Source: Paludisphaera soli (lineage in GTDB: Bacteria > Planctomycetota > Planctomycetia > Isosphaerales > Isosphaeraceae). Taken from it: a stretch of 64,000 nucleotides of DNA. The stretch is taken from NCBI RefSeq assembly GCF_011064595.1, contig NZ_JAALJI010000031.1, forward strand, positions 1-64,000, in the 5' to 3' direction. The notes below the pieces were generated by a model. The model saw nothing but the letters and a program-made list of their open reading frames with translations, did not search any database and was not told where the DNA came from. The position numbers and the translations under genes were made by a program. Of this stretch, positions 6,360-35,166 are shown one piece after another; position 1 is the first letter of the stretch, and each line of letters begins with the position of its first letter.

Positions 6360-7746
6360 ATGGCGATCGACCCCGAATTCCAACGCAACAAGGAATGGCT
6401 CGGCTACGTGCAGCCGGTGGGCCTCGTGGTCTCGCCCCCCGCCCTCTCGGCGGCGCAGGCGTTCCCGAACAGGAACATCATCCCCGACCACGCCCGCTTC
6501 CTCGATTGCGTCTCCGAAGTCGACCTCCCCGGGAAGGACGACCCGGCGCCGGCCGTCCTGGACCTGCCGAGGTTCTGCTCGGAAGTGCTGGGCTGGAGGC
6601 CCGAGGATCTCGTCGGCTCGCCCCAGGGCGGCCCCCTCCCCGATTCGCTCGAAGTCGCCCTGCCCGAGTACAACGAGACGCTCCGGCCCACCTACGCGCT
6701 CCGCGAGGACGAGCCCGGCCCGGACGGCGATCGCCCCTGGATGATGCTCATCGAGGCCCTCCCCACCGGGGCCGGGCTCGACGAGGTCGGCGAGACGGAC
6801 GACCACCGCTGGCAGGCGAGCCGCCAGGCGCGGTTCGAACGGCTGCTGCGCGAGACGCAGGTCCCCATCGGGTTGCTCGCCAACGGCACGCAGTTCCGCC
6901 TGGTCTACGCCCCGCGCGGCGAGACTTCGGGCCACGCGACTTTCAGCGTCAAGGACATGACCGAGGTCGCCGGGCGGCCGATCTTCGCGGCCTTGCACAT
7001 GCTGCTTTGCGAGGAGCGGCTCTTCTCGCTCGGGCCCAAGCAGCGCCTCCCCGCGATCCTGTCGGACAGCCGCAAGTACCAGAACCTCGTCTCCACCCAG
7101 CTCGCCCAGCAGGTGCTCGAGGCCCTCTATGAACTCGTCCGGGGGTTCCAGGCGGCCGACGAGCGGTCGAAGGGCGAACTGCTCCGGGCCGTGCTGGAGG
7201 ACGACCCGAACCACGTCTACGCGGGACTGCTCACCGTGCTGATGCGGCTCGTCTTCGTGCTCTACGCCGAGGATCGCGGGCTCGTCTCCAGCGACGAGGT
7301 CTACCAGAAGTTCTATGCGATCACCGGCCTCTTCGAGCGGCTCCGCGAGGATGCCGGCCGGCACACCGACACGATGGACCACCGCTACGGCGCGTGGCCG
7401 CAGCTCCTGACGCTCTTCCGCCTGATCCACGACGGCGGCCGGCACGGCGGGTTGAAGCTCCTGGCGCGGAAGGGCTACCTGTTCGACCCGGACCGCTACC
7501 CTTTCCTGGAGAGGCGGCCCAGGGGCTCGAAGCGGCGGCCCGGCGAGTCGATCGCCCCGCCGCACGTCTCCGACGGCGTCGTCTTCCGCGTGCTCCAGAA
7601 CCTGCTCATCCTCGACGGCGAGCGGCTGAGCTACCGGACGCTCGACGTCGAGCAGATCGGCTCGGTCTACGAGACGATGATGGGGTTCAACCTGGAAGTG
7701 GCCCGGGGCCGCTCGATCGCCATCAAGCCGAAGAAGGCCCACGGCG
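6360..7746 (+). CDS. drmMI: DISARM methylase DrmMI, N-terminal part (frame broken at about 7746)
   Basis: This frame starts at ATG 6360 and encodes about 460 residues of the N-terminal region of a large Eco57I-like N6-adenine methyltransferase. Segments include WLGYVQPVGLVVSPPAL, LLANGTQFRLVYAPRGE and VLMRLVFVLYAEDRGL, and it ends at IGSVYETMMGFNLEVARGRS and IKPKKAHG. Beyond about 7746 this frame runs on to a stop at 8825 but encodes Arg/Pro-rich shadow sequence. The methylase continues in the next frame from 7747. Rejoining the two needs a +1 shift within CACGGCGTTGACC. The cause could be a real inactivating mutation, a sequencing error or, less likely, recoding. As it stands, methylation by this system would be lost. 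Confidence 0.8.
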
Positions 7747-10374: not shown

Positions 10375-11558
10375 TGGCCAAGGCGAAGTCGACAACCCGA
10401 CGCACCGCCCCCGCCCGCCTGGCCGACGCCGCGCCCGCGTCGACGGCGGACCGCCTGCTGGGCGACCTCCGCTCGCTCATCGAGGCCGCCCGCGACCAGA
10501 CGGCGAAGGCGGTGAACTCGGCGCTGGTCGGCCTCTACTGGCACATCGGCAAGCGGATCCGCGAGGACGTCCTCCACGACCGACGGGCCGAGTACGGCGA
10601 CGCGATCGTTTCGACGCTGTCGAGACGATTGACCGCGGAGTACGGCCGAGGGTTCTCCGAACCGAGCCTCCGGCACATGATACGCTTCGCCGAGGTCTTT
10701 CCGGACGAGGCGATTGTCTCCGCACTGCGGAGAGATTTGAGCTGGACGCATTTCAAGGAGATCCTCTACCTCGACGACCCGCTCAAACGGGACTTCTATG
10801 CGGAGATGTGCCGGATCGAACGGTGGAGCACGCGGACGCTCCGGCACAAGATCGGCCATCTGCTCTTCGAGCGCACGGCCCTGAGCAAGAAGCCGGACGA
10901 GCTGATCGCGCAGGACCTCGCCGCGCTCCGGGACGAGGACCGGATGACGCCCGACCTCGTCTTCCGCGACCCCTACTTCCTCGACTTCCTCGGGCTCACG
11001 CAGCCGTACGCCGAGAAGGACGTCGAGCAGGCGATCCTTCGCGAGCTGGAGGCGTTCATCCTGGAGCTGGGGACCGACTTCGCCTTCGTAGCCCGGCAGA
11101 AGCGGATCTCCGTGGACAGTGAGGACTACTACCTCGACCTGCTGTTCTACCACCGCCGCCTGCGCCGACTGGTGGCCGTCGAGCTCAAGCTCGACAGGTT
11201 CCAGGCCGCCGACAAGGGGCAGATGGAGCTCTATCTCCGATGGCTGGAGAGGTACGACGCGAGGCCCGGAGAGGAGCCGCCGATCGGCTTGATCCTGTGC
11301 GCCGAGAGGTCGGAGAAACAAGTCGAACTGCTCCAACTCGACAAGAGCGGCATCCGCGTGGCCCAGTACTTGACGGAGCTTCCCCCGCGCGAGTTGCTGG
11401 AGAAGAAGCTGCGCGATTCGATCCGACTGGCGCGCGAGCATTTGGCGGCGGAGCGTCGGGAACCGACGCCCGACCCTGAACCGAAGACGCCCCCCCCGCC
11501 CGCGGCGGCCGCCAAGGCGCGAAACTCCAGAAGAAGCAAGAAGCCCCGCGATGCATAG
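10371..11558 (+). CDS. DUF1016 / YhcG-like PD-(D/E)XK nuclease inside the DISARM operon
   Basis: 395 residues. The N-terminal DUF1016 domain contains LVGLYWHIGKRI, YGDAIVSTLSRRLTAEYG and FSEPSLRHMIRFAEVFP. The C-terminal nuclease fold shows YYLDLLFYHRRLRRLVAVELK (about residues 253-273), giving the D-x(n)-ExK pattern of PD-(D/E)XK enzymes, followed by KGQMELYLRWLE. The start ATG 10371 overlaps the drmMI stop (ATGA), and its own stop overlaps drmA by 8 bases, so it is translated as part of the DISARM operon. DUF1016 proteins recur beside restriction systems, but this is not one of the core DISARM subunits. It may supply a nuclease activity. The Pro/Ala/Lys-rich C-terminal tail looks disordered. 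Confidence 0.88.
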   Translation: MMAKAKSTTRRTAPARLADAAPASTADRLLGDLRSLIEAARDQTAKAVNSALVGLYWHIGKRIREDVLHDRRAEYGDAIVSTLSRRLTAEYGRGFSEPSLRHMIRFAEVFPDEAIVSALRRDLSWTHFKEILYLDDPLKRDFYAEMCRIERWSTRTLRHKIGHLLFERTALSKKPDELIAQDLAALRDEDRMTPDLVFRDPYFLDFLGLTQPYAEKDVEQAILRELEAFILELGTDFAFVARQKRISVDSEDYYLDLLFYHRRLRRLVAVELKLDRFQAADKGQMELYLRWLERYDARPGEEPPIGLILCAERSEKQVELLQLDKSGIRVAQYLTELPPRELLEKKLRDSIRLAREHLAAERREPTPDPEPKTPPPPAAAAKARNSRRSKKPRDA

Positions 11559-17677: not shown

Positions 17678-18345
17678 ATGTGTCGAACGTCTCCGGCGCG
17701 AGGCGGCCCGGCCGTCGACCCGCTGCCGTACGTCGAAGATCTGCGTCGCGGGATCCCCGAGGAGCGGATCGACGCCATCCTATCACAGGTCGGCCGCGGC
17801 TCGGAACGTCGCCGTCGGCTCCCCCCCAATCGGTCGCCTGGCTGGTGATCGCCATGGCGTGGTTCGCAGCCGACTCGATCCCCAAGGCCTGGCACCGCCT
17901 CCACCCGACGCGCGACGAGCCCGAGCCCCAGGCCGCCGGATCGCTGCGAGAGGCGGTCGGGCACATCGTGAAGGTGACGCGGAGCTACTGGCCGGGGCTG
18001 TTAGCCTGCTATGACGCGGCCGCCCTGCCCCGGACGAACGACGACCTGGAGCAGTTCTTCGGTTCATACCGCTACCACGAGCGTCGGGCGAGCGGACGGA
18101 AGGCGGCCTCGCCGGGGACCGTGGTCCGAGGCTCGGTCAGGCTGCTCGCGTCGGCCGCGACTCGATTACGAGCGGTCGATGAGGCGAAACTCGCCCCATC
18201 GAACTCGGCGAGGTGGCGCCTGCTACGAGGCTCACTGGATCGTAGGCAGGCGACCCGGACGATGGGCCGCCGCTTCCGCCGCGATCCCGCGGCCTACCTC
18301 AAGCCGATTGAAGAGTCATGGATCAAGAAGATTCTGCCGCCCTAG
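17678..18345 (+). pseudogene. Composite transposase relic (IS4-type N-terminus joined to a transposase C-terminus)
   Basis: From ATG 17678, preceded by AAGGAGG, one frame encodes DPLPYVEDLRRGIPEERID and a Gly/Arg-rich stretch typical of an IS4-type N-terminus. The frame shifts near 17820 into SVAWLVIAMAWFA and AWHRLHPTRDEPEP. The central catalytic part is missing, and the sequence jumps to a transposase C-terminus: HIVKVTRSYWPGLLACYD, TNDDLEQFFGSYRYHERRASGRK and FRRDPAAYLKPIEE. A frameshift plus a large internal deletion, or recombination between two elements, explains this. It separates the DISARM operon from the ATPase-helicase operon. Confidence 0.65.
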
Positions 18346-18484: not shown

Positions 18485-21400
18485 ATGGGTTACGAACAGA
18501 GCATAGAAAGTCAGATCAACCAATTAAGAGACGTGCTCCAGAGATACCACGGATTCGCCGTGGTGCGCGAGCTCCTCCAGAACGCCGATGACGCCGGGGC
18601 CACCCGCCTCGACATCGGATGGGTGCGGGACCTGGGCGGGGCGCAGCACGAGTTGCTCGGCGGAGGTCCCGCGGTCTTCATCCTCAACGACGGGGAATTC
18701 ACCGCGAGCAACGCCCGATCGATCGCCCAGTTGGGGCTCAGCGACAAGGCCGGCGAGCACGGGCGGATCGGCAAATTCGGCCTCGGTTTGAAGAGCATCC
18801 ACCACCTCGGCGAGGTTTATTTCTACCTCTCTTCGTCCACCTTCGAAGGGGAGAGGTACAAACCGAACGACGTGCAAAACCCCTGGACCGCCCGCAAGGA
18901 GCCGGTCGAGTCGTTCCGCCCCGAATGGGATGGGTTTGCGGAGTCGGACCAATCCCTGATCCGCGAGAAGCTCGAACCGGTTCTCGCCGCCGTCCGAGAG
19001 GATTCCGGCTCCCTAACCTCTTCGAGCCACTGGTTCTGCCTCTGGGTGCCGCTCAGGCGGAAGCGTCATGTCGGCGACGACCACAGTGCGATCATTCCCG
19101 AGTACCCCGGCGATGAGGCGAGTCCTCATCCCGCCATCTTCCCAGGCGACTTCGAGGTCGAAGTGGCGAGGCTGTTGCCCTTCCTGAAGCACATCGTCGA
19201 GGTCCGCTGCTGGGTCGAAACCCACGAAGGCATCCTGCAACCGATCTCCGGCCTTCGGATCGAACCTCACTCTCGTCGCGCGTCGATCGAGTCGTGCGGG
19301 GGCCCGGACCAGAAGCCGCTGACAGGCCGAGTGCGACTCGATCGGTTCCAGGATCCGAGGCCCCTGACCGTGTCCTTCACGGGCTTCGAGGCCCTGGTGG
19401 ACGACCACCGGTTCGCGGAGATATCGGCGCGGGACGACTGGCCGCGTCCGCTCACGCTCCCCTCGTCCGAAGCCAGTCGCGGGCGATCGATCGCGAGGCC
19501 GGAGCCGGCCGTCGCTCATGCCGCCGCCTGCCTCGTCTCCACGCCATCGGAAGGCCCCTCGGGCCGCCTCGACATCGTCTGGGCCTCGTACCTCCCAGTC
19601 AAGCTTCCCGAGATCCCATCGCAAGTCTTGAGCAGCCCATACCATCTCACCCTCACGCTCCACGGACGCTTCTTCGTGGATGCAGGCCGGGGCGAGGTCG
19701 ACTTCGGTGATGGGAAGGCCGCGGAGGAGCGAAGCCTGCGACAGCGATGGAACGACCTGCTCCGGGACGAGGGGACCCTCGACCTCGTCATCCCCGCCAT
19801 GGAGTCGTTCGCGGATTCTCTCGCGCCGGAGGATCGCGCCGGAGTGATGCGAGACCTGACCTCGGCGATCCACGCCTCGACATTGTTCTCCGAGAATCGG
19901 CGGTCGATCTGCCGACGTCACCAGTGGGCCTACCGCCATGGCCCGTCCGGGGCGGCCTGGACGGACGTGGGCGTCGGATCGACAGCCTGCGAGATCCCGG
20001 AGCCCGCCGAGGACGAACCCTCGCTCGAAGCCGTCTTCCCATCCCTGGCCGGGCTTTGCGACGACGGTTTCTGCGCGATCTACGGCGGATGGCCGGACCT
20101 GATGCGAGAGGAGCGTCGGGCGGCCTGGCCCGAGCCGGCGCTGCTGCGCCTCCTGGAGCTGGACGCGGCCGCCGTCTTCGCCGATCCGAGACGCCTGTCC
20201 TTGTTCGTCCGCACGGTGGAGGTCGCCCGAGGCGGCAACTCCAGCCCGACGGTAGCCGCGCGGCTGCGGGAGATCGCCCGTCAGGGGATGTCCTCGTTGA
20301 AGCTCTCCGGAGTCATGCGGCAAAAAGACCTGATCCAGCGATACCTCGCCTTGATCCCCGCCGAGAGCAAGCTGAAGCTCGACCTCGGGTCCGCCCCCCT
20401 CGACTTGGTCGGTCCATTGGTGGAAGCACTCTGGGAGGAACGCTGTTCCGTGCTCGCCACGCCGATCGCGCACGGAGCGGGGTGCCCCACTCGTGAGGAG
20501 GAGGAGGGCCTTCTCGCCCGATTGCTCGCCGTGACGTCATCAGGGAGGGAGGGCGACTTCTTCGAATGGCGCGTGCAGATCGCCTGTCAGGTCGTAGGCT
20601 TGGCGCAGCCCGACTCGGGATCGCCTCGGGATGGACTCGCTGATATTCCGATCTTCCCGGTCCGGGCCGGCACCGACGGCGAGGCTTGCCTCGTCGGCCG
20701 CGGGGCACTGGCAGGTGCGCTCCGAGCCAAACGCTTGTTCGCCGACGTGGAAATGCTCGGTGGTCCGCTTCTGGGGGCTTTGCGGGACGGAACTGAGGAG
20801 CGTTTCATCATCGTCGCCCGCCGGATCGCCGACGCCGCTTTCGGTCGCGACGTGGTCCCCAGCTGCGATCCGCTCAGCTGCTTGAGGCTTCTCGAATCCG
20901 CGCCGCTCCTCGTTCAGGCCGAGGCGCGCAGGGGTGCCCTGCTCGGCGCACTCCTCGCGGCCCTCGGCAAGGGCGACGTCCGGTCAGAGAGACAGCCTCT
21001 ACGATACTTGCTCCACGCGACGCCCGATCGCTGCTCGGAAGATGCTCCTCTCTACCACGAATCGGACGCCGGGTTGGCGCCGATCTGGGCGAGTCTGGCG
21101 TCTCGCGCATTGCAGCAATCGGGGGGAGGGTGGCGCGTGGTGCCTCGCGGACTGGCCGACCTGCTCAATACCGAGCAGAAGGTTTCGCTCGACGTCCGGC
21201 CTCTCGATCGCCCGGGCGTCGTCGACCTGCTCCGCTCCACCGAGCCGGCGGCACTCGACCTCGCCGACCTGGCCGAGGATGACCTGCGCGCCCTGATCGA
21301 AGAGTGCAAGGCGGCGGACTTCGAGGTCATCCGGGCCCTGCCGATCCACCTCACGAACGAAGGCCTGCGAGTGTCGATCGACGACAGGTGTCGCTGGCGG

Positions 21401-24400
21401 GCGGACTTCCCCATCGACGGCGACCTCGCCGACAATGTGATCGTCCTGGAGCCCGATCGCCGCCCGGCCGTCGCACTCAAGCAGCGGGAGATCCACCCCC
21501 ATTCCCTCGACGCCAAGGGCATCATCGACCTGATCCTCAAGGCTCCGGACCCGCAGCGCCGCTGGAGGACGGTCCTCGACGCCCTGTCCGCGATCGGGGA
21601 GGTGCCGTCTCATCTTTCCAACTCCCTCAAGACGACCCGCTGGATCACGACCCGGGCAGGCCGGCCCGTCTCGCCTCACCAGGTCGTCAACTCGCGGTCC
21701 ATGAACGACGTGATTCGCATGACGCTGGCCGATCTGAAGGTGGACGAACCGGAGGTGGTCTCCGCGCTGGAATTGCCGGAACCTTTCCTCACCAACAGAG
21801 TCGTGCATGGGCTCTATCCCAGCCTGGGCGACGCGCTCGAGCGGCTGGGCCGGGTCCTGGCCCACGATGAACGCTACCGGGTCGGACCCTTGGGACGCGA
21901 CGAGGTATCGCTCGCCGAACTCCGCTCGGTATTCGCCGACGCCCCCGCCGGGGTCATGCCGTGTTTCCCGTTGCTGCGGGGGCAGACCGGGGTCGGGGCG
22001 ATCCGCGAGAACCAGGACGCCACGATCGAGTCCAGGCTCGTCCCCGCCCTGTTGCAAGACGTTTCAGGTGCCCGCACGGAGGAGATCCTCGCCTACCTCG
22101 CGAAACGCCACGCCGAGGCCCCGCAGATGGAGCGGGGCATGTTTTTCTCGTGGTATAGGCGCTATCTTGACGCCGCCTGCAAGGCGGACCAGATTGAGGC
22201 AATCCTCGCCGACATTCCGCTCCTCAGCCAGGCGGAGGGCTGGGAACGTGCCTCCACGTTGACCACCGCCGCCGTCGGCGTCGACCCCTCTTGTCTCCTC
22301 CACCCGGACCTGGCACGAATCCTCGCGGAGCACGCCCACAGACCAGGCGATCCCGACGCCGTGTCATTGGCACCGGACGGGGCGACGGCGTGGTCCGGCG
22401 GGCCGGGCTCGCTTGACGAGGATGTGCAACGCGGGGCCGTCGCCCTGGGCTCCTATGCCGAGGAGTGGGCGAGTCTTCCCTCGGTCCCTCGTGAGCTCAT
22501 CGGCGGCCTGATGGCCCTCCTCGGCGATGCGCCTGCGCTGACCGACCTGGCGCGTAATTTCCTGGGGAGCTTCCAGGCCGAGGCCCTCCGCGAGAATCTG
22601 GCCTGGGACGGCTCGCAACCGTTCGTGATTCGAGGAACTCGCTGCGGAGGTGCGGGCATCAGCATCACCCAGGCGATGAGGCTGCGTCGCACCATCGTCG
22701 AACTGGCCGATGGGGATAGGATCAGGGTGTCCAACTTGCTCGGGCGACCGATCGAGGTGGATGTTCGGCAGACATTCGACGACCTGCTGCTCCCTCATGA
22801 TTACCTCGGGAACCATGACGGCCTGCGGTACTTCCGGATTCGGATCCGCCGTGTGAACCCGGCTCGGCTTCTGGAGGGACTCGACCCCGTGTCCGTACTC
22901 CGCGAGACCGCGCGTCGGTTGCTCGAGGTCGTCGACCGTCAGACGATCTCGAATTTCCACGAGGTCTGGGGCAAACTGGCACAGGGGGAGCAGCTCGACC
23001 TCGCGATGGCGCAGCTCGGCCTCCAGGAGGACCTCCCCACCGTCCTCCAGAATCTCGGCCTCAGAAATCGTGAGCCGATCGCGACCGTACTCCGCGACTG
23101 GCACGAGGCGAAGCGCGAGCTCGCGCAGCTTGAGTCGACCGAGGAGAAGCGCCGCGCCAAGGCCGAGGATCGCAAGCGGATCGCCCGCGACAAGCTCCGG
23201 CGGCTGCTCGAAACCGACGTGGAGGCGCAAGGCCACTGCCTCAACGCCGTCCGCGAGAAAATCAAGACGAGTCAGTACACGCTCGACTCGATCCCCTTCG
23301 AGTTGTTCCAGAACGCCGACGACTCCGTCGCCGAGCTTCGCGTGTTGCTGGGCGACGTCCGGCCACCGGACGACTCGTCGCTCCGGTTCGTCGTCGATAC
23401 CAACGGCCGGGCCCTCTGGTTCGCCTCCTGGGGCCGCGCGATCAACCGCCACCAGGCGGCGGGTTTCCATGATCCGGTCCGCGGATTCGACCAGGACCTG
23501 GAGAAGATGCTCGCGCTCGGCTGGTCCGATAAGGGGCAACTCGGACACGGCGACGATCAGACGACCGGGAAATTCGGACTCGGCTTCAAGAGCGTCCTCC
23601 TGGCGACGGACCGACCGCGAGTCCTCAGCGACCGGCTGGCGTTCGAGGTCGTCGGCGGCCTTTTCCCGAGGGCCCTCGGCGAGAGTCGCGGGGCGCTGCA
23701 GGAGCGTATCAGGGAGCTCGGGCCGGCGCGGCAGGATGGCACGATCGTCGAGCTGTCCATGGACGGCGTCGAAGTCGGCGAGGTTCTCGAACGCTTCCGC
23801 AAATCCGCCCCTCTGCTTGCCGTCTTCGGGCGCGAGATCCGCTCGTGCATCATTCGATCCGAGGAAGGTCGGACCGAGGCTTACCGGTGGGAGCCGGTGC
23901 CCATTGATGGCACGCCGGGGGCGGAGGTCGGCGAGCTGCCGGGCCTCGTGCCTGGTCGGCTCCTGGTGCTCCGCGGCAGATCGTCGGCGACCGCGCTGGC
24001 GATCGGCCGGGAAGGGGTTGAGGGCATGCCTCATGATTGGCCCACGATCTGGGTGACCGCGCCGACTCGGCAGGCGGAGAGGCTCGGTTTCGCCGTGAAC
24101 GCACCGTTCGACCTCGACGTGGGCCGCTCGCAGCTCGCCTACTCGTCGAGTCGCAATGAAGAGATCGCCGCCGCCGCGGGTCGGGAGGTCGGTGATGTGC
24201 TCGTCGCCCTCCACCGACAAGGGAAAGACGGCTGGGAGGGATTCGCTCGGGCACTGGGCCTGAACGAGGGTGCCTCGCCGCTGTCGTTCTGGGTGACCGT
24301 CTGGGAGCGGCTGGGCAAGCCCCTCGCAGGCCACCACGACCCGCACGGGCCGCTGCTCCGGGGGATGTTCTGGGGAGCGGCGGATCGCGGGATGCGTCGG

Positions 24401-26158
24401 CTCGTTTCGGAGTGCGACGCCCTCCCCAACGGCCTCTGGGGGGACGACCGGGACCTCACCGGCCTAGGCCGCCTCCGCGCTCGGGTCTCGGGACTGCTCG
24501 ATTCCGAGGATGTGTATAATGGGGTTGCGTGTTGGCCTCGCTTTCGCGATGCCCACCCACGCGGATCCCTCGTCTCAGGGCGAGTCTATGATGACCTCAA
24601 GGCGCTGGCGTCCGGCATGCCCCCCGACTGCGTCAAAGTCACGCTGGGCGCGGCCATCGTCGGAGAATTGGGCCCGGATCAGAGAGCGGATGCCGGTATC
24701 GCGGCCCGCATGGGGGCCCTGATCTCGCCGGAATTCCTCGGTGCCCTGTCGACCAGGGGGGCGGTGGCGACGCAAGAGATCGACGCCTTGAAGAAAGTAC
24801 TGGCCGACGTCCGGTTCCAGACCCGTGACAGGGACTGGCACCACGCGGCAGACCTGGTGATGCCCGGAGATGATGACGAGGGCCTCCGCGCCGCCTTCGC
24901 CCCCCCCCGATCCGTCCTTTCGGACGGCTATGTCGGCGAAGCGGCGGGTTTTTTCCGCGCCTGCCGAGGGCAACTGCGTGCCGATGCCAGGATCCTCAAG
25001 GGGTGGGCGATGCAGCCCCTCGACGAAGGCACGCGCAGGGCCGTGCTAACGTACTTGATTCGCGGGCAGCTCGCCCAGGCGCTCTCGGATCAGCTCATCG
25101 GTCAGCTCGCAGGTGGCTGGCTCGCCCGGCTCGACACGGCCACTATCATGGGCCAAGGTTTCGACCATAACCAGGCCGCGGTAATCCTCGGGCGGCTCGG
25201 AATCACGCCCAGGCCGACGGCGGTGCCGACCGGCGCCAACGACCGAGATAAGCGCCCCGCCCCGAGGGCCGCTCTGGCATCGATCCACGACTGGTGGGGC
25301 AGCACTCGCGCAGAATGGGTCTCGCGCTACGAGCGGCAGTGGTATCCGGCGGGCTCTATCCCAAAGCTCTCAGGTGAGATCAATCGACGCTCGCCCGTCG
25401 AGGACCGTGGGGGGTGGATGATCATGTTGATGCTCGGGGCGATGCATACGATGGGCCGCACTCGGGCGGAGGCCCACCGAGACTTCCTCGTCCTGTGTAA
25501 GGACAAAGGCTGGCTCGACGTCTTCTCGCGGCCAACTGACGATCTCGGCCAGTGGATGGAGGTCCTCAAGGAGTACCTCGATCAGAAGGTCGGGGACAGC
25601 CCTTACCTGCACTGGATGGGCAGGTTCGTCAGCATCTTCCAGCTCGCGCACTGGCTCCACGATTATGTCGAGACTTTCCTCGCGATCGACCGGGTGCGGG
25701 AGGAGTTTGAACTCGACGCGATCACCGCGTCCAGGACCTCTCCCATCTTCCAGGGGGGCGGCCTGGGCCCTCCGCCCGTCTCCCGCACCCTGGGGATCGG
25801 CGCCTGCTTCGTGGTTCGCGAGCTGGTCCGGGCGAAGATCATCACCAACCCCCTCGCCCACCGCCATTGCTACGTCCCCTCGGCCCGCGTCCGCCGCCTC
25901 GTGTCGCTGCTGGGCTGCCCCGGACTGGATGGCGATTTCACCTCGACCGCCGAGAGGGTGAGGGTATCGGGCATGATATATGAATACCTCGTGCACACCC
26001 TGCGAGGCGAGGAACGGGCCCTGTTCCAAGGGGATTTCGACTTGCCCCTCATAGCTCTGACCGAGCCGGCCAATCGGGGAGTGCTCGCGGACCTGCTTGG
26101 TTCGAGCCAGGCCGATGAACTGGATGAGGCCGAGGACGAACTCCAGGAGGTCTTCTGA
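18485..26158 (+). CDS. Giant protein with two sacsin/HSP90-like GHKL ATPase modules
   Basis: 2557 residues. The first GHKL ATPase module is at about residues 20-110, with N box ELLQNADDAGATR and G2 box GKFGLGLKSIHHL. A second module is at about 1600-1710, with ELFQNADDSVAEL and GKFGLGFKSVLLATDRP. This is the arrangement of sacsin N-terminal ATP-binding repeats. The intervening regions show no motif I can name, and the tail is acidic. The start is ATG 18485 with GGAGAG upstream. Its stop shares one base (TGATG) with the helicase gene, so the two form an operon. GHKL ATPases combined with SF2 helicases are known from restriction-like systems related to MORC/MutL proteins, so a defence role is inferred. 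It is not one of the named DISARM components. No nuclease motif was recognised. Confidence 0.8.
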   Translation: MGYEQSIESQINQLRDVLQRYHGFAVVRELLQNADDAGATRLDIGWVRDLGGAQHELLGGGPAVFILNDGEFTASNARSIAQLGLSDKAGEHGRIGKFGLGLKSIHHLGEVYFYLSSSTFEGERYKPNDVQNPWTARKEPVESFRPEWDGFAESDQSLIREKLEPVLAAVREDSGSLTSSSHWFCLWVPLRRKRHVGDDHSAIIPEYPGDEASPHPAIFPGDFEVEVARLLPFLKHIVEVRCWVETHEGILQPISGLRIEPHSRRASIESCGGPDQKPLTGRVRLDRFQDPRPLTVSFTGFEALVDDHRFAEISARDDWPRPLTLPSSEASRGRSIARPEPAVAHAAACLVSTPSEGPSGRLDIVWASYLPVKLPEIPSQVLSSPYHLTLTLHGRFFVDAGRGEVDFGDGKAAEERSLRQRWNDLLRDEGTLDLVIPAMESFADSLAPEDRAGVMRDLTSAIHASTLFSENRRSICRRHQWAYRHGPSGAAWTDVGVGSTACEIPEPAEDEPSLEAVFPSLAGLCDDGFCAIYGGWPDLMREERRAAWPEPALLRLLELDAAAVFADPRRLSLFVRTVEVARGGNSSPTVAARLREIARQGMSSLKLSGVMRQKDLIQRYLALIPAESKLKLDLGSAPLDLVGPLVEALWEERCSVLATPIAHGAGCPTREEEEGLLARLLAVTSSGREGDFFEWRVQIACQVVGLAQPDSGSPRDGLADIPIFPVRAGTDGEACLVGRGALAGALRAKRLFADVEMLGGPLLGALRDGTEERFIIVARRIADAAFGRDVVPSCDPLSCLRLLESAPLLVQAEARRGALLGALLAALGKGDVRSERQPLRYLLHATPDRCSEDAPLYHESDAGLAPIWASLASRALQQSGGGWRVVPRGLADLLNTEQKVSLDVRPLDRPGVVDLLRSTEPAALDLADLAEDDLRALIEECKAADFEVIRALPIHLTNEGLRVSIDDRCRWRADFPIDGDLADNVIVLEPDRRPAVALKQREIHPHSLDAKGIIDLILKAPDPQRRWRTVLDALSAIGEVPSHLSNSLKTTRWITTRAGRPVSPHQVVNSRSMNDVIRMTLADLKVDEPEVVSALELPEPFLTNRVVHGLYPSLGDALERLGRVLAHDERYRVGPLGRDEVSLAELRSVFADAPAGVMPCFPLLRGQTGVGAIRENQDATIESRLVPALLQDVSGARTEEILAYLAKRHAEAPQMERGMFFSWYRRYLDAACKADQIEAILADIPLLSQAEGWERASTLTTAAVGVDPSCLLHPDLARILAEHAHRPGDPDAVSLAPDGATAWSGGPGSLDEDVQRGAVALGSYAEEWASLPSVPRELIGGLMALLGDAPALTDLARNFLGSFQAEALRENLAWDGSQPFVIRGTRCGGAGISITQAMRLRRTIVELADGDRIRVSNLLGRPIEVDVRQTFDDLLLPHDYLGNHDGLRYFRIRIRRVNPARLLEGLDPVSVLRETARRLLEVVDRQTISNFHEVWGKLAQGEQLDLAMAQLGLQEDLPTVLQNLGLRNREPIATVLRDWHEAKRELAQLESTEEKRRAKAEDRKRIARDKLRRLLETDVEAQGHCLNAVREKIKTSQYTLDSIPFELFQNADDSVAELRVLLGDVRPPDDSSLRFVVDTNGRALWFASWGRAINRHQAAGFHDPVRGFDQDLEKMLALGWSDKGQLGHGDDQTTGKFGLGFKSVLLATDRPRVLSDRLAFEVVGGLFPRALGESRGALQERIRELGPARQDGTIVELSMDGVEVGEVLERFRKSAPLLAVFGREIRSCIIRSEEGRTEAYRWEPVPIDGTPGAEVGELPGLVPGRLLVLRGRSSATALAIGREGVEGMPHDWPTIWVTAPTRQAERLGFAVNAPFDLDVGRSQLAYSSSRNEEIAAAAGREVGDVLVALHRQGKDGWEGFARALGLNEGASPLSFWVTVWERLGKPLAGHHDPHGPLLRGMFWGAADRGMRRLVSECDALPNGLWGDDRDLTGLGRLRARVSGLLDSEDVYNGVACWPRFRDAHPRGSLVSGRVYDDLKALASGMPPDCVKVTLGAAIVGELGPDQRADAGIAARMGALISPEFLGALSTRGAVATQEIDALKKVLADVRFQTRDRDWHHAADLVMPGDDDEGLRAAFAPPRSVLSDGYVGEAAGFFRACRGQLRADARILKGWAMQPLDEGTRRAVLTYLIRGQLAQALSDQLIGQLAGGWLARLDTATIMGQGFDHNQAAVILGRLGITPRPTAVPTGANDRDKRPAPRAALASIHDWWGSTRAEWVSRYERQWYPAGSIPKLSGEINRRSPVEDRGGWMIMLMLGAMHTMGRTRAEAHRDFLVLCKDKGWLDVFSRPTDDLGQWMEVLKEYLDQKVGDSPYLHWMGRFVSIFQLAHWLHDYVETFLAIDRVREEFELDAITASRTSPIFQGGGLGPPPVSRTLGIGACFVVRELVRAKIITNPLAHRHCYVPSARVRRLVSLLGCPGLDGDFTSTAERVRVSGMIYEYLVHTLRGEERALFQGDFDLPLIALTEPANRGVLADLLGSSQADELDEAEDELQEVF

Positions 26159-28890
26159 TGGAGGCATCCCAGGGCTTATCCCCCGCGGACCAGGTGAGGA
26201 GCGGTCGATTCGGGGTCGGCCGGGTCGAATACGACAAGGGGCCGACCACGATCGTCCGGTTCGATCACGGGCTCGAGGAGTGCGCCAAGGACGACCTCGA
26301 AGTCATCGTCACGCCGCTCCAGGCGGTGGAGAGGGGCCGATGGGAGGCTCCGCTCGAGGTCATCGCCCGCATCCAGGCCGAGTCGATACGCTCCGTGAAT
26401 GACGCCTGGGGCGTCTTCTCCCGGTCGAAGATCGACCTCCTGCCGCACCAGCTCTGGGTCTGCCGACGCGTCCTGGAGAGGTGGCCGGCGCGCTGGCTCG
26501 TCGCGGACGACGTCGGCCTCGGCAAGACGATCGAGGCCGGGCTGATCCTCTGGCCTTTACTGGCCCGCGGCCAGGTCCGCCGCCTCCTCGTGCTCTGCCC
26601 GGCCTCCCTCGTCGAGCAATGGCAGTCGCGGATGCGCACGATGTTCGACATCCGCCTCGCCCCTTACCTCGCCGAGGCGGACACCGCCCGGCTCGCCTAC
26701 TTCACGACGCATGACCAGGTCGTCGCCTCGCTCGAGACCATCCGGACTTTCGCCCCGGAGGAGCATAAGACCGCCTCCCGCGAGGACCGGAGCCAGCGGT
26801 TCTTCTCCTGCGAACCGTGGGACCTCGTGATCGTGGACGAAGCCCACAGGCTCAACGCCGAGGAGCGAGCCAAACCGACCCTGGGGCACACGCTGATAGA
26901 TCGCATGGACGGGGCCGGGCTCATTCGATCCCTCGTCTTCTTCACCGGCACCCCACACCGGGGAAAGGAGTACGGATTCCTCTCGCTCCTCAAGCTGCTC
27001 AGGTCCGACCTCTTCGACCCCGAGCAGCCGATGGAGGGGCAGATCTCGCATTTGAGAGAGGTGATGATCCGCAACAACAAGCAGAACGTGACCGACCTGG
27101 CCGGGAACCGGCTCTTCCAGCCGACCGCGGTCAAGAACGAGACGTACGCTTACTCGCCCGCCGAGCAGACGTTCTACGAGATGCTCACGGACTTCATCGT
27201 AACCGGGAAGGCTTACGCCGGAACCCTCAAGGGGTTCGAGGGGACGGCGGTCGGCCTGGTTCTGGTGGCGATGCAGAAACTCGCCTCGAGTTCCGTCGCC
27301 GCCATCCGCCGGGCGCTGCGGGGCCGTCTCGAGCGCATCGGCGAAGCCCGCCGGGAAGTCGACCGGTTCAGGCATCGCCTCGAACGCTACCGCGAGACGG
27401 AAAGCGGGGGGGACCTCGACGCGATGGCCGATCTCGAGGAGAAGATCGCCGCCGAATCCGCCAGCCTGAGCCTGATGGGGGGGGAGGAGCACCGACTCAG
27501 GGAGCTGATCGCAGCGGCGGAGAGGGTCGAACGGGAGACGAGGATCGAGCGGATCGTCGACCTGGTGAGGACTGACTTCCCGGGCCGCTCCGTGCTGTTC
27601 TTCACCGAATACAAGGCGACCCAGTCGCTCCTCATGTCGGCCCTGTTTCGGGAATTCGGCGACGGGTGCGCCACCTTCATCAACGGCGACGGCCAGGCCG
27701 ATGGGATGGTCGATTGCGCGGGCCGCGTCGTCCCCATCCGGGAGTCTCGCGACCGGGCCGCCGATCGATTCAACGGGGGGGCGGTCCGCTTCCTCGTGTC
27801 GACCGAGGCTGCCGGGGAGGGTATCGACCTCCAGGAGACATGCCATACCCTGGTCCACGTGGACCTCCCCTGGAATCCCATGCGGATGCATCAGCGCGTC
27901 GGTCGCCTCAACCGGATCGGGCAGCGGAAACCGGTCGAGGTCGTCATCATCCGCAACCCCGACACCGTCGAGGGGCGGATCTGGGACAAGCTCAATGCGA
28001 AGATCGAGAGCATCATGCGAGCGCTGGGGGGGGCGATGGAGCAGCCCGAGGACTTGATGGAGCTCGTCCTGGGGATGGCCTCCCCGAGTCTTTTCGCCGA
28101 ACTCTATTCGGAAGCCGGGTCGGTCCGCCCGGAATCGCTCTCGGATTGGTTCGACCAAAAGACGGCGAGGTTCGGCGGCCGGGACGCGATCGCTACGGTC
28201 CGCGACCTCGTCGGCAACTCCGCCAGGTTCGATTTCAAGGAAGTGGCCGACCAGCTGCCGCGGGTGGACCTGCCGGCCCTCCGGCCCTTCCTGCTGAACA
28301 TGCTCGCGCTCAACCACCGCAAGGTCCGGGAAGACGAGGAAGGGTTGTCGTTCAAGACTCCAGATGCGTGGATGGACGCGCCGGCGGTGAGGAGAAACTA
28401 CGAGGGCCTGCTCTTCGATCGGAAGCACAGGGCGCCGGACGCCGTGAACCGGGTGCTCGGCGTCGGCCATCCGGCCATCGACCGGCCCCTGCATCAGGCG
28501 TCCGGCTGGACGAAGGCCGCCACGCTCCTCCCCGCCTCGGAACTCTCCGCGCCGATCGCCGTGTTTCGCGTGACGGATCGCATCACCGGATCCGGCGGCC
28601 AGGTGCGTTCCGTCGTCGTCGGCGTCGAAACACCCGCCCATGCGGCACCCGCTTCGGTCCTCAGCGACTGGCGGCTTCTGCTGAAGCTCAACGACCTGGT
28701 CGCATCCAGAATTTCTAGGGGGCAGTTATCAACCCTGAATCCTCCATCATCGGAGACCATCCGAGAGGCCCTCCGGGGGGCCGAATCCTCCCTCGCGAGA
28801 GAGCTCCCGCGGCTGGACCTCCCGTTCCGGTTCCCCACGCTCGATCTCCTCGCCGTCCTCTGGCCCGGGGAAGTCGCTCCCCGATCATGA
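26158..28890 (+). CDS. SNF2/RapA-type helicase partner of the giant ATPase
   Basis: 910 residues. An N-terminal segment (GRFGVGRVEYDKGPTTIVRF) resembles a small SH3/Tudor-like barrel. Helicase motifs follow: I ADDVGLGKTIEAG (about 115-127), II IVDEAHRLN (about 225-233), III FFTGTPHRGKEYG, and V-VI STEAAGEGIDLQET and HQRVGRLNRIGQ (about 578-589). A charged coiled-coil insertion lies at about 388-438. It overlaps the giant ATPase gene by one base. The DrmD-like motor design suggests DNA translocation or remodelling. No nuclease or methylase is encoded directly downstream, so if this is a defence unit, cutting may come from an unrecognised domain in the partner or from neighbouring systems. Confidence 0.88.
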   Translation: MEASQGLSPADQVRSGRFGVGRVEYDKGPTTIVRFDHGLEECAKDDLEVIVTPLQAVERGRWEAPLEVIARIQAESIRSVNDAWGVFSRSKIDLLPHQLWVCRRVLERWPARWLVADDVGLGKTIEAGLILWPLLARGQVRRLLVLCPASLVEQWQSRMRTMFDIRLAPYLAEADTARLAYFTTHDQVVASLETIRTFAPEEHKTASREDRSQRFFSCEPWDLVIVDEAHRLNAEERAKPTLGHTLIDRMDGAGLIRSLVFFTGTPHRGKEYGFLSLLKLLRSDLFDPEQPMEGQISHLREVMIRNNKQNVTDLAGNRLFQPTAVKNETYAYSPAEQTFYEMLTDFIVTGKAYAGTLKGFEGTAVGLVLVAMQKLASSSVAAIRRALRGRLERIGEARREVDRFRHRLERYRETESGGDLDAMADLEEKIAAESASLSLMGGEEHRLRELIAAAERVERETRIERIVDLVRTDFPGRSVLFFTEYKATQSLLMSALFREFGDGCATFINGDGQADGMVDCAGRVVPIRESRDRAADRFNGGAVRFLVSTEAAGEGIDLQETCHTLVHVDLPWNPMRMHQRVGRLNRIGQRKPVEVVIIRNPDTVEGRIWDKLNAKIESIMRALGGAMEQPEDLMELVLGMASPSLFAELYSEAGSVRPESLSDWFDQKTARFGGRDAIATVRDLVGNSARFDFKEVADQLPRVDLPALRPFLLNMLALNHRKVREDEEGLSFKTPDAWMDAPAVRRNYEGLLFDRKHRAPDAVNRVLGVGHPAIDRPLHQASGWTKAATLLPASELSAPIAVFRVTDRITGSGGQVRSVVVGVETPAHAAPASVLSDWRLLLKLNDLVASRISRGQLSTLNPPSSETIREALRGAESSLARELPRLDLPFRFPTLDLLAVLWPGEVAPRS

Positions 28891-31456: not shown

Positions 31457-33862
31457 ATGCGCCTGCACTGCTCCCGGCCGAGTCGAGCCCCACGGGTTCA
31501 ACGACGGCCGCCTGAGCGACGAGACCCAAGCCTGGACGATTCCTACCATCAGCTGCGGGACCTCAAGAACATGCTCGACGACCGGATCAGGTCCCGAATC
31601 CTCGACGACCACAAGAAGCTGACCGCCGACGGCAAGCTCCTGTCGAGGTCGCAGTTGGATGCCAGCTACCGGACGTTCCGCAGCCGGTTCGGGCCGGACG
31701 TGCTGGCGGGGCTCGACGGCGAAGAGCTCCTGGAAACGATGCACGCCCACGGCAACCGGGACAGCCTCGTCTACTGGCTGGAGTTCAAGAACGACGACGA
31801 GTTCCCGGCCCGCTTCGGGAGCATCTCCGGGGGCAGCGCCTTCAAATTCGGCGTCTTCCGAGGCAAGGAGTCCGGCAACTGGGTGTCGGGCTCGCCGCAG
31901 AATGTGAGGCAATTGACAGTCCAGGAGGCGGTCGAGATCGCCCGCAAGCACCGGGACGAGTTGATCCGGGGGACCGCGCGGCTCGGCATGGTTCCCGACC
32001 TCGCCGACGACGCCGAGTATCGGGGTCTCCAGGTAGACCTCGGGCGGATCGCCCCGTCGGTCGGCGACCTGGCCTGGGGCCACAAATACTTCTCCCTGAT
32101 GCACCCCGAGAAGCTCGACGACTACCACAACGCCGACTACCAGCGGTTCCACCTCGTCAAGCTGCTCCAGGTCCCGCCCGAGGGCGAGGGCCGCTACCTC
32201 TGCGCCGGTCGCTTCGTGGCCGCCGCCGACGAACTCGGCCTCCCGATCAACCATCTGACGACGACCCTCAACCACCGCGACGGGGAGCCGCACGCCTACT
32301 GGCGGGTCGACACGTCCGACGGGACGCAGCCGAGGGGCCGCTGGCCGCTCATGCGGGACGGGGCCTGCGTGGCGATCGGCTGGCCCGACCTGGGCGACCT
32401 GTCCGATTTCGAGAAGGACGCCGCCAACAAGCAGAGGCTGGTCGAACTAATCGGCGAGCGACATCCCGGCACTCCCCAGCAGGTCGGGAGGGCGGCCGCG
32501 CAGGTCCTCAACTTCGCCAAGGGGATCGCCGAGGGCGACGTCGTCCTCGCCTGCGACGGCCAGGCCGTCCTCGGCGTCGGTCGCGTCGTCGGGGCGTACG
32601 TCCACGAGCCCGCCTCCGACTTCCCCCACCGCCGGGCCGTCGAGTGGCTCTCGCTGGACGAGTGGAGGATGCCCGAGCCCGAGGGGCTCCAAACGACCGT
32701 CCACCGGCTCAGGAAGGCCCCGGCCAACCTCGTCGAGGCGGAGCGACGTTCGCTCGGCGGTCAGATCGTCCACGGGTCGCCGGGTCCGGGGCCGTCCAAG
32801 ACGGGCGGCGGGGCCGCGCCCCGCCTCGTAGGCGTGGCGGGTCGCATCCAGGCCGTGCTCGAACGCAAGGGCCAGGCGATCCTCTACGGGCCTCCGGGCA
32901 CCGGGAAGACGTACTGGGCCGAGCGGACGGCGCTCGACCTCGCCTCGTACCCGCTAGCCGGCAAGCCCTTCGACGGGCTGTCGGAGGGCGAGAAGGCCGA
33001 GGTGACGGGCGGACCTTCTGGACTTGGGTCGGTCCGCATGGTCAGCTTCCACCCGGCTTACGGGTACGAGGACTTCATCGAGGGCTACCGCCCCGAATTG
33101 CACGAAGGGCGGATGACCTTCGCCCTCCGGGACGGCGTCTTCAAGGAGTTGTGCCGGGACGCCGAGAAACGGCCCGATCGCCCCTTCGTCCTGATCATCG
33201 ACGAGATCAACCGGGGCGACGTCACCCGCATCTTCGGCGAACTGCTGACGGTCGTCGAGAAGGACAAGCGGGGCAAGTCGGTCGTCCTGCCGCTGAGCCG
33301 AGCGGCCTTCCGGGTACCCCCGAACGTCCTGCTCATCGGGACGATGAACACGGCGGACCGCTCGATCGCCCTGCTCGACGCCGCCCTGCGGCGTCGGTTC
33401 GGGTTCGTCGAGTTGATGCCGGACGCTTCGCTGCTCGAGGGCGTCGCCGTCGCCGACGTCCCGCTGGGTCCCTGGCTGGAGGCGCTCAACCGCCGGATCT
33501 GCGAGCACGTCGGGCGGGACGCCCGCAACCTCCAGGTCGGCCACTCGTTCCTCATGGAGGCGGGCAGGCCGGTCCGGGACGCCGCCCGGTTCTTCCGGGT
33601 CGTCCGCGACGAGATCATCCCGCTCCTGGAGGAGTATTGCTACGAGGATTTCGACGCCCTGCACGCCATCCTCGGCGGCGGCCTGGTCGATCTTCCGAAC
33701 CGGGCGATCCGCCACGAACTGTTCGAGGGGCCGACGGGGCCGGAACTGGGCCAGGCGCTCCTGGCCCCGTGCCCCGAGGTGTTGACCTCGCTCAAGGCCG
33801 TGACGAGCCTCGACGAGGCCGAGGCCGACGAGGACGAGCCCGATGCGGGGTCGCCGTCGTGA
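31457..33862 (+). CDS. mcrB: McrB-like GTPase subunit of a modification-dependent restriction system
   Basis: 801 residues from ATG 31457. The C-terminal AAA+ domain has Walker A GPPGTGKT (about 477-484), Walker B IIDEINRGDVTRIFGELL (about 579-596) and the McrB-type GTP signature GTMNTADRS (about 628-636) with an arginine finger in LRRRFGF. Before it, about residues 325-415 (GIAEGDVVLACDGQAVLGVG, then a tail with HRRAVEWL) resemble an EVE/PUA-like fold that could read modified bases. The first 26 residues look non-native; recognisable sequence begins at LDDSYHQLRDLKNM near 31532. ATG 31571 is an alternative start. The stop overlaps the mcrC start (GTGA). Together the pair is expected to cut modified foreign DNA. 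Confidence 0.88.
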   Translation: MRLHCSRPSRAPRVQRRPPERRDPSLDDSYHQLRDLKNMLDDRIRSRILDDHKKLTADGKLLSRSQLDASYRTFRSRFGPDVLAGLDGEELLETMHAHGNRDSLVYWLEFKNDDEFPARFGSISGGSAFKFGVFRGKESGNWVSGSPQNVRQLTVQEAVEIARKHRDELIRGTARLGMVPDLADDAEYRGLQVDLGRIAPSVGDLAWGHKYFSLMHPEKLDDYHNADYQRFHLVKLLQVPPEGEGRYLCAGRFVAAADELGLPINHLTTTLNHRDGEPHAYWRVDTSDGTQPRGRWPLMRDGACVAIGWPDLGDLSDFEKDAANKQRLVELIGERHPGTPQQVGRAAAQVLNFAKGIAEGDVVLACDGQAVLGVGRVVGAYVHEPASDFPHRRAVEWLSLDEWRMPEPEGLQTTVHRLRKAPANLVEAERRSLGGQIVHGSPGPGPSKTGGGAAPRLVGVAGRIQAVLERKGQAILYGPPGTGKTYWAERTALDLASYPLAGKPFDGLSEGEKAEVTGGPSGLGSVRMVSFHPAYGYEDFIEGYRPELHEGRMTFALRDGVFKELCRDAEKRPDRPFVLIIDEINRGDVTRIFGELLTVVEKDKRGKSVVLPLSRAAFRVPPNVLLIGTMNTADRSIALLDAALRRRFGFVELMPDASLLEGVAVADVPLGPWLEALNRRICEHVGRDARNLQVGHSFLMEAGRPVRDAARFFRVVRDEIIPLLEEYCYEDFDALHAILGGGLVDLPNRAIRHELFEGPTGPELGQALLAPCPEVLTSLKAVTSLDEAEADEDEPDAGSPS

Positions 33863-35166
33863 CGGGCCTCGCCGTCCGGCTCGCCGAGTGGCAGACCATC
33901 TCGCCGGTCCCTGGAAGCCCGACGGCGGGCCTCGTCCTGGGCGACGACCCGGCGGTGCGGGACCTGGCCCGTCGGCTCTCCGACTCCCGGATGCTGGTGG
34001 TCCAAGAGCTCCGCACGGGCCTGTCCGTCGCTTCGACCTCGTTCGTCGGGCGGGTCCGGCTCGGCGGGGTCGAGATCACGGTCGTCCCCAAGCTGCGGTC
34101 CGAGACCCTGCTGAGCCTGCTCCGCTTCGCCTACGGCCTACGGCACCTGCACCTGCTGCCCTCGACCTCCCACGCCACGCAAGACGTCGGGTTCCAGGAC
34201 GTCCTGGTGTGGCAGCTGGTCGAAGAGGCCCGGGAACTCCTTGCGAGGGGTCTGAGGCGGGCGTACGTGCGGCGGGAGGAACTCCTGGCCTCGCCCCGAG
34301 GCCGGATCGACTTCCAGGCGATGGCGGGTCGGGGGCCCCTCGCGGCGGCGACCCTCCCGTGCGTGCACCACCGCCGGGACCCGGACCGCCTGATCAATCG
34401 GGTGCTCCTGGCGGGCCTGCGGCTGGCCGCCTCGGTGGCCGCCGACCGGGGGCTGAGGGTCCGGGCGAGGCGGCTCGCCGACCTCCTGGGGGAGGGCATC
34501 TCGCCGACCCGGCTCGACCGGGAGGTCTTCCGGCGACTGGCGGGCGAGATGGACCGGACGACCAGGCCGTACGAGCCCGCCGTCTCGCTCGTCCGCATCC
34601 TCCACGAGGGCGGCGGGCCGTCCCTGGGCGAGGAGCCGGCCGGGCCGAGCCTGCCCGGCTTCCTGTTCGACATGAACCGGTTCTTCCAGGCGTTGCTCGG
34701 CCGGTTCCTGGCCGACAACCTGCCCGAGCACTCCGTCCGTTCGGAGCACCGGCTCTCCGGCATGTTCGCCTACCTGCCGGGATGGAACCCCCGCCGCAGC
34801 AAGGCGCCGACGCCCCGCCCGGACTTCGTGATCTCGCAAGGGCCGGAGACGGTGGCGATCCTGGATGCGAAATACCGGGACCTCTGGGAGAACCCGCTGC
34901 CCAGGGACATGCTCTACCAGCTTGCGATCTATGCGCTGAGCCACGAGGGCGGGACGGCCACGATCCTGTACCCGACCACGCACGCCCAGGCTAGGGAGGC
35001 ACGGATCGAGGTGCGGAACCCGATCCATGGGGGGAGGCGGGGTTCGGTCATTGTGAGGCCCGTCGATCTGGAGACTCTGGAACGGCTGATCTCGGCCCGA
35101 ACGACCACGGCCACAGTCCGGGAGCGACGACACTATGCCTCTCTGCTCGCCTTGGGCGCCGGATGA
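33859..35166 (+). CDS. mcrC: McrC-like nuclease subunit
   Basis: 435 residues starting at GTG 33859, which overlaps the mcrB stop. The N-terminal region (LAEWQTIS, FVGRVRLGGVEITVVPKL) matches the McrC opening. The C-terminal PD-(D/E)XK nuclease has RPDFVI followed by VAILDAKYRDL (about residues 319-341), giving D-x(n)-DAK, and then MLYQLAIYAL. McrC is recruited by McrB-GTP oligomers and supplies DNA cleavage. The gene looks intact. An ISL3 relic and a HEPN gene follow on the other strand after about 95 bases. Confidence 0.88.
   Translation: MTGLAVRLAEWQTISPVPGSPTAGLVLGDDPAVRDLARRLSDSRMLVVQELRTGLSVASTSFVGRVRLGGVEITVVPKLRSETLLSLLRFAYGLRHLHLLPSTSHATQDVGFQDVLVWQLVEEARELLARGLRRAYVRREELLASPRGRIDFQAMAGRGPLAAATLPCVHHRRDPDRLINRVLLAGLRLAASVAADRGLRVRARRLADLLGEGISPTRLDREVFRRLAGEMDRTTRPYEPAVSLVRILHEGGGPSLGEEPAGPSLPGFLFDMNRFFQALLGRFLADNLPEHSVRSEHRLSGMFAYLPGWNPRRSKAPTPRPDFVISQGPETVAILDAKYRDLWENPLPRDMLYQLAIYALSHEGGTATILYPTTHAQAREARIEVRNPIHGGRRGSVIVRPVDLETLERLISARTTTATVRERRHYASLLALGAG

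Follow-up and report, generated by a model that had tools for sequence, protein, structure and literature searches.

The window, a stretch of 64,000 nucleotides from a contig of the planctomycete Paludisphaera soli, encodes a giant protein with two GHKL ATPase modules, directly followed by an SNF2 helicase. These two genes form a cassette which travels together among distantly related bacteria. The pair is rare and mobile, and it probably represents a two-gene defence system. Its kind is already known, since operons combining GHKL and SNF2 genes were predicted in 2008 (PMC2292703, in the sections consulted), and the present nuclease-free arrangement of domains seems to be a variant not described before.

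The gene pair

The pair and its parts are located in the window as follows.

18485..26158, plus strand: giant double-GHKL (sacsin-type) protein, 2557 aa (ORF list, Pfam, NCBIfam)
18551..18823, plus strand: core of GHKL module 1, residues 23-113, with E29, N33, D36, N68-D69-G70 and G96xxGxG
19661..19690, plus strand: HGxFFxDAGR loop of module 1, residues 393-402; R402 is invariant in 11 aligned giants
19772..23164, plus strand: middle region of the giant, residues 430-1560, which a modest-confidence model shows as mostly helical
23222..24139, plus strand: GHKL module 2, residues 1580-1885, with E1606, N1610, TGKFGLGFKS and the loop arginine R1881; inside it WGRxIN, residues 1649-1654, replaces the Asp of the G1 box
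24965..26155, plus strand: C-terminal domain of the giant, residues 2161-2557, helical; the sole giant part left in locus L003 (see below)
26156..26160, plus strand: TGATG, stop/start overlap of the giant and helicase genes
26158..28890, plus strand: SNF2 helicase of the RapA/DrmD/BrxH kind, 910 aa (ORF list, PADLOC, Pfam, NCBIfam, tree)
26422..28032, plus strand: helicase core, residues 89-625, with GLGKT (120-124), DEAH (227-230) and QRVGR (579-583)
28033..28887, plus strand: C-terminal region of the helicase, residues 626-910, conserved in the clade and not part of the recognised helicase domains

A first-pass annotation of the window had described an ORF of 2557 residues with two GHKL modules, whose stop overlaps the start of a DrmD/RapA-like helicase between DISARM and McrBC genes. 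All of this was confirmed: the ORF carries both motif pairs, and in the junction TGATG the stop and the start have one base in common. Upstream of the giant lies a class-1 DISARM system with drmD, drmMI, drmA, drmB and drmC between positions 3013 and 17587. On the 3' side the pair is followed by a McrB-type AAA protein (31457-33862; AAA_5, the name McrB being ours) and by a frame (33859-35166) with a PD...DAK motif, which is McrC-like by eye.

The giant protein

The N-box is found at residues 29 and 1606 and the G2 box at residues 96 and 1695. The Pfam family SACS (PF25794) matches the giant in two stretches with 103.2 bits (cut-off 32.8), which assigns it to that family, and NCBIfam NF047352, a domain name only, scores 104.3 (cut-off 50). 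Module 1 is a classical Bergerat ATPase, in which E29, N33, D36, N68, G70, G96, G99 and G101 are invariant across nine aligned giants; in the NDG motif Asn replaces Asp in 2 of 12 readable rows.

Of the two modules, the second is the better conserved. The Glu and Asn of its N-box are kept in at least 90% of 16 rows, and the TGKFGLGFKS box is also retained. In GHKL proteins the Asp of the G1 box is the adenine-binding residue. Module 2 has HWGRxIN at the position where this Asp is expected, Asp occurs there in none of the 13 rows shown, and the Arg and Asn of the WGRxIN-type motif are invariant in 16 rows. The asymmetry of the second module is a specific and testable oddity. The terminal loop of module 2, NAxFxLDxGR, has an arginine (R1881) which is invariant in 16 rows; this loop and the HGxFFxDAGR loop of module 1 presumably resemble the catalytic loop of the Hsp90 middle domain. 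When the two halves of the giant were compared profile against profile, only the GHKL core aligned (90 columns, 96.7%).

The GHKL modules are closest to sacsin and Hsp90, and not to MORC or MutL, which the first-pass annotation had brought up. The nearest solved relative of module 1 is the sacsin repeat SR1 (2e-10), with MORC2 far weaker (0.0018). For residues 1560-2557 an AlphaFold2 model was built from 16 sequences (pLDDT 83.0, pTM 0.59), and Foldseek matched it to Hsp90 (best 3.9e-7). With VIA-align, where rows within 1 Z of each other count as tied, sacsin SR1 reached Z 13.9 (rmsd 3.1, 169 aligned) and the Hsp90 Hsc82 (6xlf_B) Z 12.8 (rmsd 6.1 A), the latter with 390 residues aligned over model residues 26-597; GyrB was nearly tied (Z 12.2, 177 aligned; GyrB/ParE rows about 12). 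MORC was outside the best 50 VIA rows for module 2, an absence that excludes nothing. Both GHKL modules are sacsin/Hsp90-like.

The search with HMMs and structures, suggested earlier for both proteins, thus gave SACS, SNF2 and the sacsin/Hsp90 fold of module 2, but no convincing match for the middle and C-terminal regions of the giant. The modest-confidence model of the middle region is helical (pLDDT 74.8, pTM 0.39); it had no Foldseek match at E 0.001 and a best VIA Z of 6.3. Against PDB profiles the C-terminal domain had one match at 0.85, which is chance level. In 15 of the 17 genomes of the loci this domain is present in a single copy, and in each of the other two it is found in two pieces. 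The giants of the two Methylococcaceae loci (L010 and L011) share a C-terminal extension of about 100 residues, which most others lack. By eye this extension looked nuclease-like, a reading which we dropped as Pfam returned no accepted match (one sub-threshold DUF3226 match for one of them, nothing for the other).

The helicase and its relation to DrmD

Pfam finds SNF2-rel_dom and Helicase_C in the helicase and leaves residues 626-910 uncovered. Across 19 rows with 44-54% identity to the helicase of the window, GLGKT, QRVGR and, in the DEAH box, the residues D, E and H do not vary. The nearest solved structure is RapA (9.3e-27), and the first 60 residues may be read as a putative SH3-like N-terminal domain.

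PADLOC and NCBIfam disagree on whether this helicase is DrmD. The PADLOC model PDLC02634 for DrmD covers residues 12-904 with 1015 bits, whereas the helicase misses both NCBIfam cut-offs for DrmD (276.1 vs 610 and 120.9 vs 950). The PADLOC model is probably named DrmD because the pair can adjoin DISARM. In a tree the 24 helicases of the pair lie on one side of a branch and seven other SNF2 helicases opposite, and the branch separates them from the window's own DrmD with a support of 91/96 (below the tool's own star, and with long outgroup branches) and in 92% of 200 bootstrap trees. The helicase belongs to the same superfamily as DrmD of DISARM, and DISARM adjoins the pair in the window and in L022; however, its partner is the giant and not drmA, drmB or drmC. 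A phmmer search with DrmA, DrmB and DrmC of the window gave no match among the listed ORFs of L001-L018, several of which are short contigs. On account of the NCBIfam cut-offs, the tree and the constant giant partner we rejected identity with the DrmD of DISARM. The statement that the pair is not an already named system stands in so far as NCBIfam (June 2026) contains no curated named family for it and no paper on it was found among the open-access full texts listed (subscription journals and most preprints lie outside this scope), but not for PADLOC, which has the helicase as DrmD. Current tools miss the giant and fold the helicase into DISARM.

Recurrence and linkage

With the helicase as query, a scan of 84,980 species genomes gave 18 loci (L001-L018). 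Giant homologues lie directly upstream on the same strand in 16 of the 17 loci with upstream DNA; L004, which begins 131 bases before the helicase match, was left out of this count. All five plasmid loci that were fetched contain both genes. Among the plasmids with the pair are those of Deinococcus sp. QL22, plasmid C of Trichormus variabilis and pC33 of Sphingomonas; pDrdI of D. wulumuqiensis carries two copies (L024, L030). The helicase of the L030 copy is annotated as two pieces with a stop between them. Genome surveys added five more genomes with both genes in order (G451, G592, G705, G502, G540).

Including the window, 28 clade helicases have readable DNA upstream, and 27 of them adjoin the giant, so that recurrence of the pair elsewhere, which the first-pass annotation had left to be checked, is clear. 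In five of the 27 (L005, L013, L014, L063, L069) the contig edge leaves just the C-terminal part of the giant. The two D. wulumuqiensis copies were counted separately, and the plasmid of Trichormus 0441 was omitted as its scores are near-identical to those of L022. The giant is encoded by two genes in L022 and L023 and by two overlapping frames in L008, L009 and L015, which may be assembly errors. The pair is found in eleven named phyla: Thermodesulfobacteriota, Chloroflexota, Actinomycetota, Planctomycetota, Pseudomonadota, Gemmatimonadota, Myxococcota, Verrucomicrobiota, Tharpellota, Cyanobacteriota and Deinococcota. That other genomes, too, have long homologues of the two proteins next to each other indicates that the pair is more than a chance arrangement.

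The sole exception among the 28 is L003 (WS1), which retains only residues of about 2170-2523 of the giant. Here (L003:5924-12715) a 1098-aa BrxC/SspC-like ATPase is followed by the giant C-terminal domain in a shifted frame and then by the helicase. A partner swap is possible, and the combination of this helicase with a BrxC/SspC-like ATPase means that the double GHKL is not indispensable there.

Conversely, relatives of the giant without a clade helicase were found in Haematobacter (L025), in Synechocystis (L026) and, weakly, in one Planctomycetota genome (G044). The relative on the Haematobacter plasmid pOT1-5 (L025:11995-18306, 2103 aa) adjoins a TM0106 RecB-like nuclease, a WYL protein and a HEPN protein and could be part of a different system. 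In L023 a comparable RecB-like/WYL/HEPN set is located some kilobases away from the pair.

Distribution and co-inheritance

The helicase clade was found in 1 of 392 genomes of the phylum of the window, which is the window's own genome, in 6 of 241 genomes of the class of L002 and in 4 of 235 genomes of the phylum of L017, three of these four being already-known loci; the survey genomes thus partly overlap the 18 loci. In the 241 genomes, which were surveyed reciprocally, the helicase occurs in 6, a strong giant match in 6 and both in 5. Such a co-occurrence has a chance of 5.5e-9 if the genomes are independent. The contigs of the two unmatched cases measure 3.2 and 3.4 kb, and one of them contains the giant and then the first helicase residues. 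A seventh match, which is giant-like (G460, 6e-11), comes without a helicase.

The helicase tree is discordant with the taxonomy of the hosts; the helicase of L009, from Planctomycetia, groups with Desulfobacterales rows and apart from the window. No match to the pair was found among 50,697 phage records, and two scans of viral contigs revealed no copy.

The helicase distances correlate with those of the last 1000 giant residues (Mantel r 0.903, n=19 loci); none of 9999 shuffles reached this value, the highest being 0.588. The correlation indicates joint inheritance and does not imply physical contact. Mean identity is 0.49 for the helicase and 0.29 for the C-terminal half of the giant.

Neighbouring genes

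Among the scanned or annotated neighbours a defence or restriction family was found in 16 of 26 loci, which bears out the association with other defence genes as a raw count and not as an enrichment over random loci. The PADLOC scans covered part of the neighbours, and L063, L069 and L072 were left out. The families are listed by locus.

Window: DISARM, McrB-like
L002: BrxHI, PglZ, IetAS
L003: SspC/BrxC-like, type IIG
L005: type IIG
L007: SoFic, AbiLi
L009: CBASS cyclase and phospholipase
L010: DrmD-like, type IIG
L011: PDC-S68, DruE-like (Druantia-E-like)
L013: McrB-like; weak, partial Mokosh-like
L016: DrmD-like (phmmer), type IIG fragment (BLAST), on the basis of phmmer and BLAST only
L017: weak matches to ZacB and DpdE (67 and 69 bits)
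L018: BrxL, PglZ
L022: DISARM
L023: PDC-S68, Mokosh-like (weak, partial)
L030: PDC-S11, methyltransferase
L061: PglZ, BrxL, McrB-like

In L001, L006, L008, L012, L014, L015, L021 and L062 one to three proteins each were scanned and gave no defence match. The remaining two loci, L024 (unscanned) and L004 (without flank), were both counted as without a defence neighbour.

All-against-all BLAST of the ORFs within 6 kb in 24 loci (E 1e-8) revealed no third conserved gene. The largest neighbour groups are SNF2 helicases of the DrmD/BrxH kind (5 of 24 loci) and type IIG enzymes (3 of 24). As no gene family is common to most of the 24 loci, a third cassette gene was rejected.

Comparison with known systems

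Tiamat is a one-gene system. Its protein TmtA matches the N-terminal GHKL of the giant (best 89.2 bits), but the match comprises only giant residues 18-145, which correspond to model positions 26-141 of 1370, and in contrast to Tiamat the pair has GHKL in two modules, plus a helicase that looks like an obligate partner. Identity with Tiamat was rejected because the match is confined to the GHKL core. With sacsin the giant has in common the SACS domain family, repeated within one giant chain; unlike sacsin it has two modules, is bacterial and is linked to a helicase. The UBL, DnaJ and HEPN domains of sacsin had no Pfam match in the giant at E 0.01.

A precedent is found in the MORC and paraMORC operons, in which, according to the sections consulted of PMC2292703, a GHKL protein is linked to a superfamily II helicase in mobile, defence-like loci. 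One operon class described there has a SWI2/SNF2 helicase, and the operons carried nucleases and often methylases. The pair differs from these, as far as those sections describe them, by its sacsin-type double GHKL and by having no constant third gene; a constant nuclease or methylase partner was not found in the 24 loci. In agreement with the first-pass annotation, PADLOC, Pfam and NCBIfam recognised no nuclease or methylase family in the pair of the window. A GHKL ATPase in an experimentally active defence protein, with a proposed control of the effector, is known from VcSduA of Shedu (PMC12137116, in the part consulted), which differs from the pair as a single GHKL is fused there to a PD-(D/E)xK nuclease and a helicase is absent.

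What the pair may do

The explanation we prefer is based on the linkage, the co-divergence, the spread over phyla and plasmids, the defence neighbourhoods and the catalytic motifs in the helicase and both GHKL modules. It regards the pair as a self-contained cassette against foreign DNA, in which an ATP-gated giant and an SNF2 translocase trap, compact or strip DNA; we give this a chance somewhat short of even. As a mechanism we prefer an ATP-gated clamp worked by the SNF2 translocase. The SNF2 subunit would track on double-stranded DNA or push proteins along, its motor moving on the DNA or feeding it. The giant would be a machine gated by ATP, upon which its two unequal GHKL modules would close together as the two halves do in a dimer of Hsp90, MutL or MORC, but inside one chain. 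Its C-terminal domain would dock on the helicase, as suggested by L003, where of the giant this domain alone stays with the helicase. Invading DNA would be trapped, compacted or stripped, so that its expression or replication stops and the pair itself does not cleave. Given the modification-based neighbours in part of the loci, self and foreign may be distinguished by DNA marks or by stalled complexes.

More specifically, and only as a tentative proposal that we consider rather doubtful, the pair would be a nuclease-free innate immune machine: an asymmetric double-GHKL clamp in a single chain, loaded or driven by SNF2 via the C-terminal domain, which silences DNA, the C-terminal domain being swappable and also joining the BrxC/SspC-like ATPase of L003. 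The proposed entrapment and silencing of incoming DNA might be likened to the action of MORC ATPases on chromatin.

Against the preferred explanation speak the 10 of 26 loci without a defence neighbour in what was scanned, the ATPase swap in L003, the giant relatives without a helicase (L025, L026, weakly G044) and the fold matches, which favour sacsin/Hsp90 protein chaperones over DNA clamps. Given these nearest folds, it is nearly as attractive to regard the giant as a sacsin/Hsp90-like protein remodeller or guard, which would recognise or bind a protein of the phage or the host; infection would then make it switch the helicase on or off, and only the helicase would touch DNA. Taken for itself we judge this to be possible, yet on the unlikely side. 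Its best relatives, sacsin SR1 (2e-10; Z 13.9) and Hsp90 6xlf_B (Z 12.8), point in this direction, as does the much faster divergence of the giant than of the helicase (0.29 vs 0.49), which might be expected of a sensor; but the constant partner is a DNA translocase, and fold rows within 1 Z are tied, with GyrB/ParE also at about 12.

The pair might also serve BREX, DISARM and other modification-dependent systems of this sort as an accessory, providing an effector or translocation step and being inactive alone. Some BREX genes in L002, L018 and L061, DISARM in the window and L022 and type IIG enzymes in L003, L005 and L010, plus L016 by the BLAST link, would fit. Other loci, however, have other systems instead, such as CBASS (L009), SoFic and AbiLi (L007) or a Druantia-E-like gene (L011); together with the lack of a constant third gene this makes an accessory role unlikely.

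We consider it improbable that the pair works in a restriction-like manner through a nuclease that went unrecognised in the middle or C-terminal region of the giant or is supplied elsewhere. The 2008 operons with GHKL and SNF2 genes had nucleases (PMC2292703) and VcSduA couples GHKL to a PD-(D/E)xK nuclease (PMC12137116), both according to the sections consulted, and the middle region and C-terminal domain have no assigned fold. Yet no nuclease family was matched in the pair of the window, and a conserved nuclease signature of acidic residues and lysine was not seen among the invariant columns of the giant. That the pair is a mobile module for housekeeping or DNA repair outside defence is highly improbable, for although RapA relatives act on host RNA polymerase and about a third of the loci have no defence neighbour, the distribution is patchy (1/392, 6/241 and 4/235 genomes), the pair is carried by plasmids and defence neighbours are frequent.

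If the preferred reading of an ATP-gated clamp with an SNF2 translocase is true, a two-gene system of more than 10 kb joins the known defence repertoire, in which sacsin/Hsp90-type ATPases would be employed against foreign DNA and ATP-driven entrapment or remodelling would take the place of DNA cutting. The pair would then also offer a small, testable relative for asking how sacsin and MORC ATPases act on their substrates.

Further observations on the window

Rfam had no match in the window, and a search for a promoter or terminator in the interval from drmC to the giant gave nothing convincing. This interval contains an ORF of 221 aa (17680-18345), which has no Pfam match and resembles an ORF of L024 (26562-27131). 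Genes near the pair carry PSCyt1 and PSD1, planctomycete cytochrome-type domains, which point to a host from the planctomycetes. The drmMI gene of the window is apparently split, as the ORFs 6360-8825 and 7747-10374 correspond to positions 1-460 and 478-1341 of the DrmMI profile; in Trichormus drmMI is one ORF of 1342 aa, and the split may be a frameshift or a sequencing error. Between drmMI and drmA, inside the DISARM system of the window, lies a gene for a YhcG-type PD-(D/E)XK nuclease (10098-11558), whose product contains DUF1016_N and YhcG_C (Pfam) and is assigned to PDC-S02 by PADLOC.
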